From NCBI GenBank assembly GCA_025928585.1, contig JAICJG010000007.1, forward strand, positions 1-46,285: a stretch of DNA of 46,285 bases, read 5' to 3'. The notes under the pieces are model-generated. The model was not told the DNA's origin. It worked only from the letters and a program-made list of their open reading frames with translations, and made no database searches. Made by a program: the position numbers and the translations under genes. Source of the DNA: Rhodanobacteraceae bacterium (lineage in GTDB: Bacteria; Pseudomonadota; Gammaproteobacteria; Xanthomonadales; Rhodanobacteraceae). Shown in pieces: positions 38,242 through 42,395 of the stretch (the stretch's first letter is position 1; each line of letters starts with the position of its first letter).

Positions 38242-38357
38242 CTTCGTTCGCCGGTTACGTCGCTGCGCTCCGTGAACCCGCCTGCGGCGCCACCGGCCGG
38301 AGAATGGCTGCCGTAGGCCGGCTCAAGACGCCAGCCGGAGCCGGCGGCCAGCGGACA

Positions 38358-38870
38358 ATGCATGCACCTCCCGCCATCGTGAACGTCCTTCGTCTCGCCG
38401 ACATCGGTTTCGATGAACCGGCCGCCCTGCTCGCGCGGCACGGCCTGACACTCGTGCGCGTCCAAGGCTCTGCGCCGATCCCCGGCAGCTACTGGGGCGA
38501 ACCCGAAGCCGGCGTGATCGCAACCACGGTCTACGCCCGCGCCGACACGCCAGTGCATTCGCTGCTGCACGAGGCCTGCCATCTGCTGGTCGCGGAACCT
38601 GCGCGGCGCGCATCCATCCACACCGACGCCAGCGATTCTCTGGAGGAAGAGGACGCGACCTGCTACCTGCAGATCATGCTGGCCGACGCCCTGCCCGGCT
38701 TCGGCCGCGAACGCGCGTTCGCGGACATGGACGCCTGGGGCTATTCGTTCCGGCTTGGCTCCGCGCGTGCGTGGCTCGAGCACGATGCCGATGAGGCGCG
38801 CGCGTTCCTGGAAGCACGCGGACTGCTGCCACGGCCGTCTCCCGCGCCCGAGAGCTTGCGCTTCCGGTAG
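38358..38870 (+). CDS. Hypothetical protein with HExxH motif (putative metalloprotease)
   Basis: A 170-residue protein that I do not recognise by name. LLHEACHLL holds an HExxH motif (His71-His75), and EEEDATCYLQI (about 96-106) lies 21-31 residues later, where ImmA/IrrE and related zincins have the third ligand (Glu) and a helix. Together they suggest a gluzincin-like fold. The N-terminal domain (GSYWGEPEAGVIATTVYA) is a beta-rich part. No signal peptide was seen. The ATG at 38358 follows a poor ribosome-binding site; the frame is open to 38304. It stands between minE and the riboswitch on the same strand. The substrate is unknown. Confidence 0.68.
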   Translation: MHAPPAIVNVLRLADIGFDEPAALLARHGLTLVRVQGSAPIPGSYWGEPEAGVIATTVYARADTPVHSLLHEACHLLVAEPARRASIHTDASDSLEEEDATCYLQIMLADALPGFGRERAFADMDAWGYSFRLGSARAWLEHDADEARAFLEARGLLPRPSPAPESLRFR

Positions 38871-38948
38871 GACGGGAGCGTGCTCGCGATCGCCGCCGGC
38901 AACCGTGGCCTGCACGCAGCTTCTGCAACAACCATGGGTACCAAGCCG

Positions 38949-38974
38949 CTTGGGCTTCGCTGTGCGCAGGCCCC
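38949..38974. repeat. REP-like element before the riboswitch
   Basis: Bases 38949-38974 read cttgggcttcgctgtgcgca..., sharing the gggcttcgc core with 22331-22358 and, inverted, with 14814-14845 and 34231-34261. It sits in the 284-base gap before crcB, 41 bases upstream of the riboswitch. Confidence 0.5.
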
Positions 38975-39014
38975 TGTAAATCCAATGGTGGCTGCTACCA
39001 TGCGCCATCGATCG

Positions 39015-39072
39015 ATGGGAGATGGCATGCCTCCCCGAACCGCCGGGACATCGGCTGATGATGCCTGCACGA
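39015..39072 (+). promoter_or_regulatory. Fluoride riboswitch (crcB motif)
   Basis: The aptamer reads GGAGATGGCATGCCTCC, then an AACCGCC...CGGC hairpin, then TGATGATGCCTGC, which follows the fluoride (crcB) RNA consensus closely, notably the Pseudomonas syringae version. Predicted pairs are ggag (39018-39021) with ctcc (39032-39035), gccg (39042-39045) with cggc (39052-39055), and the long-range GGCAT (39024-39028) with ATGCC (39061-39065). It lies 82 bases before the crcB ATG. A palindrome (accggcgcgccggt, about 39083-39096) just downstream may be part of the expression platform. Confidence 0.9.
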
Positions 39073-39154
39073 CCGGGAGACCGGCGCGCCGGTATTGCCG
39101 CGTGACGGCGCAAGACGCGCGGTTCCCGACCACCTGACGGGAGTCGAGACACAC

Positions 39155-39547
39155 ATGCTCACCTACGCCCTGCTCGCCACCGGATGCGGCGCGTTCCTCG
39201 GAGCCTGCCTGCGCTATCTCTTCGGCGTATGGCTCAATCCGGTATTCCCGACCGTGCCGCTCGGTACGCTGGCCGCGAACCTGCTCGGGGGCCTGCTGAT
39301 GGGCCTGATCCTCGGCGCGTTTGCCCAATTCCAGGCGCTCTCCCCCGAGACTCGCGTATTCGTCACCACCGGGTTCCTGGGCGGCCTCACGACGTTCTCG
39401 ACCTTCTCCGGCGAAACGGTGACGCTGCTGCTGCGCCAGCAATACGGCTGGACCTTCGCGATCGTGGGCGTACACGTCATCGGCACGCTCGGGATGACAC
39501 TCCTGGGCTTCGCGCTGATGCAGACGTTGCTGAGGCATTTCGCATGA
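39155..39547 (+). CDS. crcB: Fluoride channel CrcB/Fluc
   Basis: A 130-residue protein with four transmembrane helices and the Fluc motifs GACLRYLFG, then GTLAANLLGGLLMGLILG and GFLGGLTTFSTFSGE (Na+ and F- pore residues). It forms dual-topology dimers in the inner membrane that export F-. It is directly behind a fluoride riboswitch and begins with ATG after GGGAG. Its TGA overlaps the DUF190 ATG by 4 bases. Length is as expected for the family. Confidence 0.97.
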   Translation: MLTYALLATGCGAFLGACLRYLFGVWLNPVFPTVPLGTLAANLLGGLLMGLILGAFAQFQALSPETRVFVTTGFLGGLTTFSTFSGETVTLLLRQQYGWTFAIVGVHVIGTLGMTLLGFALMQTLLRHFA

Positions 39548-39891
39548 ACGCCCGACCGACGACCCAAGGCGTGTACCTGCGTTTCTTCATGCACGAAAAC
39601 CGCCGCCATGCAGGTGTGCTGCTGTACGACTGGCTGCTGGCGGAAGCGAAGAAACTCGGGCTTGCCGGTGGCACCGCGTTTCGTTCGATCGCGGGCTATG
39701 GCCGCCATGGCGTCACCCACGAAGCGCATTTCCTGGAACTCGCCGGACACGAAACCATACGGGTGGATTTTGTGGTGACGCGCGAGGCGGCCGAGAAGAT
39801 GCTCGCGCGCGTGCGCGAGGAAAAGCTGCAGCTGTTCTACGCGATATTGCCCGCCGAATTCGGCACCCTCGGCGGCGGCGACAGCCGGTGA
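39544..39891 (+). CDS. DUF190 family protein
   Basis: A 115-residue soluble protein. Family blocks are YLRFFMHENRRHAGVLLYDWLLAEAKKLGLAGGTAFRSIAGYG, then LAGHETIRVDFVVTREAAEKML. DUF190 has a PII-like fold and is often encoded beside crcB, so a role in regulating or assisting the channel has been suggested; the function is not established. Its start overlaps crcB and its stop overlaps the MFS gene start (GTGA), giving strict coupling in the riboswitch operon. Confidence 0.93.
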   Translation: MNARPTTQGVYLRFFMHENRRHAGVLLYDWLLAEAKKLGLAGGTAFRSIAGYGRHGVTHEAHFLELAGHETIRVDFVVTREAAEKMLARVREEKLQLFYAILPAEFGTLGGGDSR

Positions 39892-41081
39892 ATCGGGACC
39901 AGCCGGTGTCATCCTTCCCGGCGCGCCGCCGCGCATTGGTTTTCGTCGTGCTGCTCGGCATCGTCAGCCTGTTCGCCGACATGACCTACGAAGGGTCGCG
40001 CTCGATCTGGGGGCCGTTCTTCGGCACCCTGGGCGCGACGGGAACGATCGTCGGACTGGTCGCGGGTGGCGGCGAACTGCTGGGCTACCTGCTGCGCCTC
40101 TTCACCGGCGCACTCGCCGACAGGACCCGGCGCTACTGGGCGATCACGATCGCAGGCTATGCCATCAACCTGCTGGCCGTGCCGGCGCTGGCGCTCGCGG
40201 GCAACTGGCCGGTGGCGGCCGGCCTCGTGATCCTCGAGCGAAGCGGCAAGGCGCTGCGCACCCCGGCACGCGACGCGATGCTTTCCTACGCCGCGAAGGA
40301 CATGGGCGGCGCGGGTTGGGCGTTCGGATTGCACGAGGCGCTCGATTCCATCGGCGGGTTGCTCGGTCCGTTGATCGCGGCGCTGGTGCTGTTCCTGCAC
40401 GGCGGGTACCGGCATGCATTCGCGTGGTTGTTGCTGCCGGCGCTGGCCGCGCTGGTGACGCTGGTGATCGCGCGGATGAAGTTTCCGCAGCCGCAGGAGC
40501 TCGAACCGCATCCGGCGCCACAGGCGGCCGACGCGCGTGCCCTCCGCGACCTGAAGGTCTTCCTGGTCGCCACCGCGCTGATTGCCGCCGGCTTTGCCGA
40601 TTTCGCCCTGATCGCCTTCCACTTCGCCAAGGACCAGATCGTCGCGAATGACGCGGTACCCGTGCTGTACGCGCTGGCGAGCCTCGCCGGCGGCACCACG
40701 GCGCTCGTGCTCGGAAGGCTGTTCGACCAGCGGGGGCTGTCGGTGTTGCTGTGGACCACCCTGGTGCCAGCGTTGTATGCCCCGCTGGTCTTCCTGGGCG
40801 GCGCGTGGGCGGCCATTGCCGGCATGATCCTGTGGGGCATCGGCTTCGGCGCGCACGACTCGCTGTTTCGCGCCGCGGTCGCGCAGCGCATCCCGCGCGA
40901 GCGGCGCGCGACGGTGATGGGCGTGTTCAACGCGATCTACGGGAGCGCCTGGTTCGCGGGCAGCCTGCTGCTGGGTGCGTTGTACGACCTGAACCCGCTG
41001 TATACGGTGATCGCGGCGCTCCTGCTGCAACTCGCCGCCTGCCCGCTGCTGTGGAGCCTGCGCAGTGGCGCTCCCGGCTGA
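39888..41081 (+). CDS. MFS transporter in the fluoride-riboswitch operon
   Basis: A 397-residue major facilitator protein with 12 predicted transmembrane helices. The first loop carries DMTYEGSRSIWGPFFGTLGATGTIVG. Loop 2-3 has LADRTRRYW (MFS motif A variant), SGKALRTPARDAML follows helix 4, and the second half has GRLFDQRGLSVLL and HDSLFRAAVAQRIPRERRATVMG. The start is GTG, overlapping the DUF190 stop. The substrate is unknown; because it is co-transcribed with crcB under a fluoride riboswitch, a link to fluoride or to a metabolite affected by it is inferred. A general multidrug exporter is an alternative. Confidence 0.9.
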   Translation: MNRDQPVSSFPARRRALVFVVLLGIVSLFADMTYEGSRSIWGPFFGTLGATGTIVGLVAGGGELLGYLLRLFTGALADRTRRYWAITIAGYAINLLAVPALALAGNWPVAAGLVILERSGKALRTPARDAMLSYAAKDMGGAGWAFGLHEALDSIGGLLGPLIAALVLFLHGGYRHAFAWLLLPALAALVTLVIARMKFPQPQELEPHPAPQAADARALRDLKVFLVATALIAAGFADFALIAFHFAKDQIVANDAVPVLYALASLAGGTTALVLGRLFDQRGLSVLLWTTLVPALYAPLVFLGGAWAAIAGMILWGIGFGAHDSLFRAAVAQRIPRERRATVMGVFNAIYGSAWFAGSLLLGALYDLNPLYTVIAALLLQLAACPLLWSLRSGAPG

Positions 41082-41222
41082 GCCTCCCGCGCCCGCTGGC
41101 GTGCCGGCGCTGCACGCAATCATCATGCAGCGAGCGGTAGACTCCGGTGGCCGTACGGGGGACCCGCGATCCGCCTCCACCCGCGATGTTTCTTCCGCGA
41201 TTCCATTGATGGAGCTCAAGCC

Positions 41223-42395
41223 ATGAACGATCTTGCGACGATCACCGCGCCCGCCACCCGCGCCAGCCGCCATGACCAGGCGCTGCGCGAGAAGGCGCAG
41301 AAGTTGCTGGCCCTCGCCGACGTGCGGATCGACGGCGATCGACCGTGGGACCTGCGGGTGCACGATGAGCGGGTGTTCGCCCGCGCTTTCGCGCACGGCT
41401 CGCTGGGGCTTGGCGAGGCCTACATGGACGGCTGGTGGGACACGCCCTCGCTCGATCAATTCTTCCAGCACGTGCTCGGCGCGCGGCTCGACGAACACCT
41501 GCGCAATTTCGATGCGCTGAGGGCGCACCTGCGGGCGCGCTTCATCAACATGCAACGGGGCCGCAAGGCCTTCAGGATCGGCAAGGCGCACTACGACATC
41601 GGCAACGACCTGTTCGCCAGGATGCTGGGCAAGCGGCTGGTCTATTCCTGCGGCTACTGGAAGGACGCGGGCAACCTCGACGACGCCGAGGAAGCCAAGC
41701 TCGACCTGGTCTGCCGCAAGCTGCAATTGAAGCCCGGCATGAGGATCCTGGACATCGGCTGCGGCTGGGGCGAGGCGCTCAGATACGCCGCCGAAAAATA
41801 CGGCGTGTCGGGCGTCGGCGTCACCGTGTCGGAACAGCAGGCACGGTTCGCGCGCGAGTTGTGCAAGGGACTGCCCGTGGAAATCCGCCTGCAGGATTAC
41901 CGCGAGGTCAACGAGACATTCGACGCGGTGTATTCGATCGGCATGTTCGAACACGTCGGCTGGAAGAACTATCGTGCCTACTTCGAGGTATGCCGCCGCT
42001 GCCTCAAGGAAGATGGGCTTTCGGTATTGCATTGCATCGGCGTCAACTCCACGCCTTCCCGGCCGGACCCCTGGATCGAGAAATACATATTCCCGAATTC
42101 GATGGTGCCGGCCGCCTCGCAAGTGGCACCGGCGCTGGAGAACCTGTTCGTGGTCGAGGACTGGCACAATTTCGGTGCCGACTACGATAAGACGCTGATG
42201 GCCTGGCTCGCCAACTTCGACGTGGCCTGGCCGGAACTGTCCGCTTCCAACCCGCGCTACGACGAACGCTTCCGCAGGATGTGGCGCTATTACCTGTCCG
42301 GATCCGCCGCCACCTTCCGCACCCGCCGCGACCAGCTTTGGCAACTGACGCTCTCGCCGCACGGCGTGCCGGGCGGCTACCGCGTGCCGCGCTGA
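41223..42395 (+). CDS. cfa: Cyclopropane-fatty-acyl-phospholipid synthase
   Basis: A 390-residue enzyme that adds a methylene group from SAM to unsaturated acyl chains in membrane phospholipids. The N-terminal domain has FAHGSLGLGEAYMDGWWD, typical of Cfa. Next come AHYDIGNDLF and YSCGYWKDAGNLDDAEEAKLDLVC (Cys143 equivalent to the E. coli active-site region), SAM motif I ILDIGCGWGE (175-184) and SIGMFEHVGWKNY, with the glutamate that binds bicarbonate. Length is as in E. coli (382). GGAG precedes the ATG. It stands alone, 141 bases after the MFS gene. Confidence 0.95.
   Translation: MNDLATITAPATRASRHDQALREKAQKLLALADVRIDGDRPWDLRVHDERVFARAFAHGSLGLGEAYMDGWWDTPSLDQFFQHVLGARLDEHLRNFDALRAHLRARFINMQRGRKAFRIGKAHYDIGNDLFARMLGKRLVYSCGYWKDAGNLDDAEEAKLDLVCRKLQLKPGMRILDIGCGWGEALRYAAEKYGVSGVGVTVSEQQARFARELCKGLPVEIRLQDYREVNETFDAVYSIGMFEHVGWKNYRAYFEVCRRCLKEDGLSVLHCIGVNSTPSRPDPWIEKYIFPNSMVPAASQVAPALENLFVVEDWHNFGADYDKTLMAWLANFDVAWPELSASNPRYDERFRRMWRYYLSGSAATFRTRRDQLWQLTLSPHGVPGGYRVPR

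Follow-up and report, generated by a model that had tools for sequence, protein, structure and literature searches.

A fluoride riboswitch operon with a recurrent transporter gene of the major facilitator superfamily in a Rhodanobacteraceae bacterium

The 46,285-nucleotide stretch analyzed here, contig JAICJG010000007.1 of a Rhodanobacteraceae bacterium (GenBank assembly GCA_025928585.1; positions 1 to 46,285, forward strand; hereafter the window), carries a fluoride riboswitch followed by crcB, a DUF190 gene and a gene for a transporter of the major facilitator superfamily (MFS). By all sequence tests, the locus is a fluoride riboswitch operon, with an ordinary riboswitch, CrcB and DUF190 protein, and it is the third gene that concerns us most. 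The genome (G000) is a 2.73-Mb draft of 183 contigs, and the closest loci with a title come from metagenome-assembled genomes of Rhodanobacteraceae and of other Lysobacterales. The features of the operon are the following.

38996-39001, plus strand: TACCAT, a -10-like hexamer just 5' of the aptamer, kept in the 12-locus genus leader alignment; weak, and missed by the consensus scan
39009-39074, plus strand: fluoride riboswitch aptamer, RF01734, 48.9 bits against a gathering threshold of 34
39075-39154, plus strand: leader from aptamer to crcB, 80 bases, expression platform unassigned by folds
39155-39547, plus strand: crcB, fluoride channel (Fluc family), 130 amino acids; PF02537 89.5 bits, NF010792 140.2 (cut-off 125), TIGR00494 91.5 (80.45)
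39544-39891, plus strand: DUF190 protein (COG1993), 115 amino acids; PF02641 64.1 bits against a gathering threshold of 23.4
39888-41081, plus strand: MFS transporter, 397 amino acids, GTG start; PF07690 (MFS_1) 93.5 bits against a gathering threshold of 33.4, with an MFS fold in the structure model

A preliminary description of the window, made from its letters alone, had placed a fluoride riboswitch, at 39015-39072, before crcB, DUF190 and an MFS gene. The covariance search upholds the riboswitch and corrects its start, since the match begins 6 bases earlier, at 39009. This match (cmscan, E = 1.2e-10) covers the full model from 1 to 64, is the sole over-threshold Rfam match of the window and is the only RF01734 match in the genome at E 0.001. 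The strands of the pseudoknot, which we take to lie where they do in the known structure, are complementary (GGCAU/AUGCC versus GGaGU/ACUCC in the Rfam consensus), with two compensated pair changes by our reading of the alignment, and the aptamer is intact-looking. Aptamers of this family are stabilized by Mg-bound fluoride, which switches expression on.

With respect to the leader, the terminator scan showed no T-tailed stem, the ribosome-site pairing was alike in free and aptamer-constrained folds, and the RNAalifold consensus of 12 leaders contained no convincing shared structure outside the aptamer, so that neither a terminator switch nor a ribosome-site switch is supported by these three approaches. 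Uncoupling of the MFS gene by an internal promoter or terminator, which by the preliminary description would have refuted its reading, was likewise not borne out: a consensus scan of 38800-41300 returned no promoter-like sites, and terminator-like sites numbered 2 versus 1.3 in shuffles, both within the MFS reading frame, which is no excess over chance. TTGACG lies upstream of TACCAT in most congeners and is absent from the window.

CrcB forms a channel through which fluoride exits the cell. The DUF190 protein is weakly P-II-like (21.4 bits, below the cut-off of 25) and has solved relatives in TM0021 and PH1503. The three genes are joined by 4-base overlaps, crcB to DUF190 and DUF190 to MFS, via ATGA and GTGA. 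None of the curated NCBIfam transporter models reaches its cut-off on the MFS protein, the Tet and 2A0121 drug/proton antiporter models falling far below theirs (TIGR00900 32.9 against 319.6; NF012174 27.5 against 475).

Across the genus, an MFS protein of 78-88% identity is encoded in 13 of the 15 other genomes, with G007 having only a 48% relative and G009 none. We observe that crcB, DUF190 and MFS adjoin in 13 of the 16 genus genomes, and a riboswitch stands ahead of the contiguous trio in 12 of these 13. The G011 trio contains a gap of about 120 bases, and in G002 the DUF190 gene lies about 0.8 kb from the MFS gene on a contig without crcB. In G004 (L008, within 481-760), the promoter-like TTGACG/TACCAT pair still precedes the crcB operon, and because the aptamer between them is missing, this operon may be naturally uncoupled from fluoride. 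The strict coupling of the MFS gene proposed in the preliminary description holds for the window, with its 4-base overlaps, and less so for the genus, where the overlap of the MFS start with the DUF190 stop is conserved in only 9 of 14 loci and two congeners lack an adjoining MFS gene. Judging from these gene orders, with the gene missing from that place in the DNA covered of G007 and G009 and more loosely attached in others, MFS is a usual yet separable third gene of the operon.

The scan of our genome collection confirmed 280 encoded MFS relatives, and the loci of 80 of these were studied. The distant set comprises 69 loci at 48-58% identity, or 72 with L016-L018 (same family and genus); L022-L032 (77-88% identity) were excluded from the distant counts, and L019-L021 (33%) served as the outgroup. 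Locus DNA extended at most 4 kb to each side (1.5 kb for L016-L018) and was often limited by contig ends. Riboswitches in these loci were counted by the Rfam gathering threshold; a mismatch pattern search for the aptamer gave several chance matches. An over-threshold riboswitch is present in 18 of the 69 distant loci (L033, L035, L037, L039, L041, L042, L044, L046, L047, L055, L059, L061, L067, L083, L088, L095, L096 and L100), and also in L016 and L017, giving 20 of 72; the sub-threshold riboswitches of L098 (31.4 bits), L100 (26.7) and L076 (33.8) are not among the 20. Together with the loci that carry crcB (L050, L058, L072, L088, L090, L097 and L098), 26 of the 72 loci have a riboswitch or crcB. 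The MFS gene is the first gene behind the riboswitch in L033, L037 and L017, and L033 has four riboswitches, one of them immediately before MFS. These relatives span many phyla and include archaeal records (L042, Methanoperedens; L100, Jordarchaeia), with the clade being rare in Pseudomonadota (4 of 398 genomes, the window's own counted).

For 50 of the 69 loci, chosen with their contexts known, the number of riboswitch-bearing loci expected was computed from the riboswitch numbers and sizes of the 50 genomes. The 18 loci seen compare with 0.21 expected (P ~1e-31, under random placement and with kinship ignored). The 19 loci omitted had shown no riboswitch, and the choice of loci by context biases upward both the 18 of 50 loci (18 of 69 over all loci) and the 39 of 50 genomes with a riboswitch. 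This MFS clade adjoins fluoride riboswitches and fluoride-defense genes far above chance placement, and the link of MFS to fluoride stress that had been proposed from the window thus gains comparative support, as in the 20 of 72 distant loci with a riboswitch and the recurring fluoride-defense neighbors.

These neighbors were identified by clustering the open reading frames of the 72 loci and scanning with Pfam a single member from each of 20 clusters (8 of the 20 unmatched). Enolase (13 loci), MutS-like (12) and Usp/CBS genes (12) recur most, along with Na+/H+ exchangers (6), phosphoglycerate-mutase-like histidine phosphatases (6) and pyrophosphatases (3). In Dyella mobilis (L083) the order is riboswitch, an unassigned gene, MFS, phosphoglycerate mutase-like, pyrophosphatase, MutS, MutS, and L043, with no riboswitch in its span, reads enolase, MutS, MutS, MFS, Usp, Na+/H+ exchanger, an unassigned gene, Usp/CBS. 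The crcB-DUF190-MFS trio itself occurs in L098 (Chloroflexota), behind the sub-threshold riboswitch, and in L050 and L097, where no riboswitch was found in the locus. A DUF190-CBS fusion sits between crcB and MFS in L097 (925-2199).

Further recurrences were observed in these loci. A Prenyltrans (alpha-alpha toroid) protein accompanies MFS in fluoride-linked archaeal and bacterial loci (L042 298-1137, L095 3162-3983, L100 5281-6231), its cluster being found also in L078 and L096, and in two Bacillota loci (L088 1948-3921, L041 7287-9101) a reading frame for a dynamin-like GTPase is situated at a fluoride riboswitch or immediately behind it. L058 (2740-5146) has a tandem MFS pair beside MutS-like genes, one of the pair on a very long tree branch. 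At five loci that show no fluoride markers, four from Legionella and one from Chloroflexota (L054, L056, L057, L065, L070), the MFS relative has a methionine sulfoxide reductase gene nearby. In the window, upstream of the riboswitch (38304-38870), there is a reading frame with an HExxH-like HEACH, for which Pfam and NCBIfam gave no match at E 0.001.

Relatives of the MFS protein are also found in 28 plasmid records, of which seven regions were read and four of those scanned with Rfam. A conjugative plasmid of Chroococcidiopsis thermalis carries riboswitch (39.9 bits), crcB, DUF190 and MFS in the same order as the window, and plasmid 4 of Aquicella lusitana has crcB-DUF190-MFS, with no riboswitch found by the Rfam scan. 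On a plasmid of Burkholderia cenocepacia, crcB, histidine phosphatase, CLC, MFS and a MutS gene occur together with four riboswitches; the MFS match there is in two pieces and the annotated gene is shorter than the match. On a Rubrobacter plasmid the riboswitch lies 3.7 kb from MFS. The Nostoc, Rhizobium and Legionella fallonii regions, which were read from their annotation and not scanned for riboswitches, have no annotated crcB, and in the Rhizobium region a Usp gene adjoins MFS.

The association was also examined in an evenly drawn sample of 251 Chloroflexota genomes, 48 of which encode the MFS (E 1e-60) and 81 of which have a riboswitch (E 0.001). Both occur together in 31 genomes, MFS only in 17, riboswitch only in 50 and neither in 153 (odds ratio 5.6, P = 3e-7), and the same cross-count with over-threshold riboswitches gives 26, 22, 34 and 169 (odds ratio 5.9, P = 3e-7). 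An over-threshold riboswitch lies within 5 kb of 12 of the 49 Chloroflexota MFS genes (16 of 49 with weaker ones included), and 16 of the 81 over-threshold riboswitches have an MFS gene no more than 5 kb away. Same-strand riboswitches stand 105 bases upstream of MFS in G574, 148 in G606 and 110 in G694.

Gaps in draft genomes affect all of the counts that set MFS against the known exporters, which leave out matches under curated cut-offs (one CrcB, two CLC) and in which PF00654 stands for any CLC, of the fluoride type or not. CrcB was found in 24 and CLC in 24 of the 50 chosen genomes; neither was found in 20, 14 of which are among the 39 with a riboswitch. These 20 hinted that MFS replaces CrcB and CLC, but the Chloroflexota control showed the reverse and this reading was dropped: among riboswitch-bearing Chloroflexota, 3 of 31 genomes with MFS lack both exporters versus 15 of 50 without MFS (P = 0.05). 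The associations of MFS with crcB (32, 16, 84 and 119 genomes, in the same order; odds ratio 2.8, P = 0.002) and with CLC (28, 20, 63 and 140; odds ratio 3.1, P = 7e-4) are both positive. Where tested by gene content, MFS accompanies CrcB/CLC, and such accompaniment is compatible with fluoride transport.

In a quick tree of 83 MFS rows, fluoride-linked and unlinked rows are intermixed, with 20 state changes; five rows (L018, L043, L051, L053, L078) had been labeled linked from enolase, MutS, pyrophosphatase or Usp neighbors alone. Wholly unlinked groups are formed by Chlamydiota, by Verrucomicrobiota with one Acidobacteriota row, and by Legionella. An ancient fluoride link with losses and a repeated gain would both be compatible with this tree.

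An alignment of 60 of the 81 MFS proteins (the window and 80 loci) has 52 invariant columns, many of them charged and including D31, T33, Y34, E35, R38, E117, R118, R124, D153 and D238. These residues lie in predicted helices, except for D238, which is at the break between two helix segments. The conserved charges suggest that the MFS has one small ionic substrate. The structure model of the window protein (pLDDT 92.8, pTM 0.90) has the fold of proton- or anion-coupled MFS exchangers, with OxlT (8hpk; Z 38.6, rmsd 3.5, 376 aligned) and then VMAT2 (Z 35.6, rmsd 3.2, 352 aligned) as top matches, SotB (6kki) at Z 32.9 (rmsd 3.4, 357 aligned) and a profile match to NorA (E 0.0026). The fold does not allow the substrate to be deduced, because 730 of 999 chains reach a Z of at least 2 in the search, and the rank of OxlT may reflect its occluded state.

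Taken together, we consider it likely that the locus is a fluoride-inducible resistance operon with the MFS as an accessory exporter beside CrcB, and the comparative record suggests that the MFS is probably a real component of fluoride resistance, not a bystander. In such an operon, crcB, DUF190 and MFS would share one message, DUF190 would tune CrcB or the transporter, and the fluoride-induced MFS, presumably proton-coupled, would export a small ionic substrate of fluoride stress alongside CrcB. The foremost candidate for this substrate would be an organic or phosphorylated acid that accumulates when enolase and pyrophosphatase are poisoned, followed by fluoride or a fluoride complex, and then by a cation exchanged for protons. 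Several observations weigh against this reading: 46 of the 72 loci, including the Legionella, Chlamydiota and Verrucomicrobiota groups, have neither riboswitch nor crcB in the DNA covered; G009 (L103) and G007 (L102) have riboswitch-crcB-DUF190 without an adjoining MFS in the DNA covered; the leader has no clear terminator or ribosome-site switch; and we infer proton coupling and the direction of transport only from fold and family.

The MFS might itself export fluoride, as an MFS-fold fluoride/proton antiporter backing up CrcB and CLC-F, a reading that we regard as unlikely. It would account for the loci in which MFS comes first behind a riboswitch of its own (L033, L037, L017, G574, G606 and G694), for the 20 of 50 chosen genomes that have neither CrcB nor a CLC of any type, 14 of which contain a riboswitch, and for the conserved charges within the helices. 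The Chloroflexota counts run the opposite way to replacement, however, both in the genomes lacking both exporters and in the odds ratios for crcB and CLC, and MFS genes outside a fluoride context are common; to our knowledge, no MFS carries fluoride. Stated most broadly, and with the same low expectation on our part, the clade (bacteria, some archaea and conjugative plasmids) could be a third fluoride-exporter family of proton-driven fluoride or metal-fluoride antiporters alongside CrcB, with an ion path through D31-E35-R38, E117-R118, D153 and D238, and would act where the passive CrcB channel cannot bring fluoride low enough.

It appears quite unlikely that the MFS has no role in fluoride resistance and is a general efflux pump that mobile elements happened to bring into fluoride islands. 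The 46 distant loci without fluoride markers would fit such drift, as would the 28 plasmid records with relatives, several of which have no annotated crcB beside them, but drift is hard to square with same-strand riboswitches just upstream across phyla and with the 18 loci seen against 0.21 expected, and the strong conservation of the MFS ill suits a broad drug pump. We find it decidedly unlikely that the MFS is a cation/proton antiporter that aids pH or cation balance under fluoride: Na+/H+ exchanger genes do recur in 6 of the 72 MFS loci, and Na+/H+ antiporters are described as the next-most common riboswitch-associated class after exporters (PMC11139923, in the part of the paper available), but an MFS of this kind would be redundant with the Na+/H+ exchanger, since loci carry both. 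The preliminary description had suggested export of a fluoride-inhibited metabolite or of a fluorinated compound. That the MFS expels an organic compound of the latter kind, or a product of its breakdown, with fluoride as the signal, is very improbable. The riboswitch would respond equally to fluoride freed from organofluorines, and the best fold match, OxlT, carries small carboxylates, but none of 30 Pfam-scanned locus proteins (11 unmatched) matches a dehalogenase or fluorinase family, and the neighbors that could be named either export inorganic fluoride or are among its targets.

Current accounts of fluoride resistance in bacteria invoke two families of exporters, together with stress genes and extra copies of the enzymes that fluoride poisons. 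The recurrence of this MFS family in fluoride loci of several phyla and of archaea points to a missing step, either another route of fluoride expulsion or the export of what builds up under fluoride stress. No paper that connects this MFS with fluoride resistance came up in our literature searches; its novelty is unproven, since Baker et al. 2012 (Science), reportedly a survey of riboswitch-associated genes, may list MFS genes. We describe the MFS as a recurrent member of fluoride loci that is undescribed as far as these searches reach. Knowing which step is missing would aid the engineering of organofluorine-degrading strains, an effort undermined by fluoride toxicity according to the part of PMC11139923 available.

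With respect to known systems, the window protein resembles the small-anion and drug exchangers OxlT and SotB in fold, and NorA by profile, and differs from OxlT and SotB in being only 14-15% identical to them, with a ranking that may reflect the occluded state and not the substrate. Like other fluoride riboswitch (crcB motif, RF01734) operons, the window has an aptamer over the curated threshold and crcB as the first gene, and the preliminary description's view of crcB as a known partner of this riboswitch is supported by the available parts of the papers (PMC11139923, PMC5533749). The same view of DUF190 finds support in the genomes, which show the pairing, while no paper that pairs the fluoride riboswitch with DUF190 was found. 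Genes linked to fluoride riboswitches include those for exporters, Na+/H+ antiporters, enolase and pyrophosphatase (PMC11139923, as far as available) and mutS (PMC2864571, likewise). Unlike the operons described, the window has an MFS as its third gene, whereas the accessible portions of these papers name exporters, Na+/H+ antiporters, enolase, pyrophosphatase, mutS, uspA and others, and no MFS (PMC11139923, PMC5533749, PMC2864571). The fluoride operon of Enterobacter cloacae FRM is ppaC-uspA-eno-gpmA-crcB-orf5249 with one fluoride riboswitch (PMC5533749, available in part). Judged from that part, it is without an MFS and the window operon is without the FRM enzyme genes, yet each places crcB and further stress genes under a single fluoride riboswitch, and the islands in which relatives of this MFS lie contain the same enzyme families as the FRM operon (PMC5533749).

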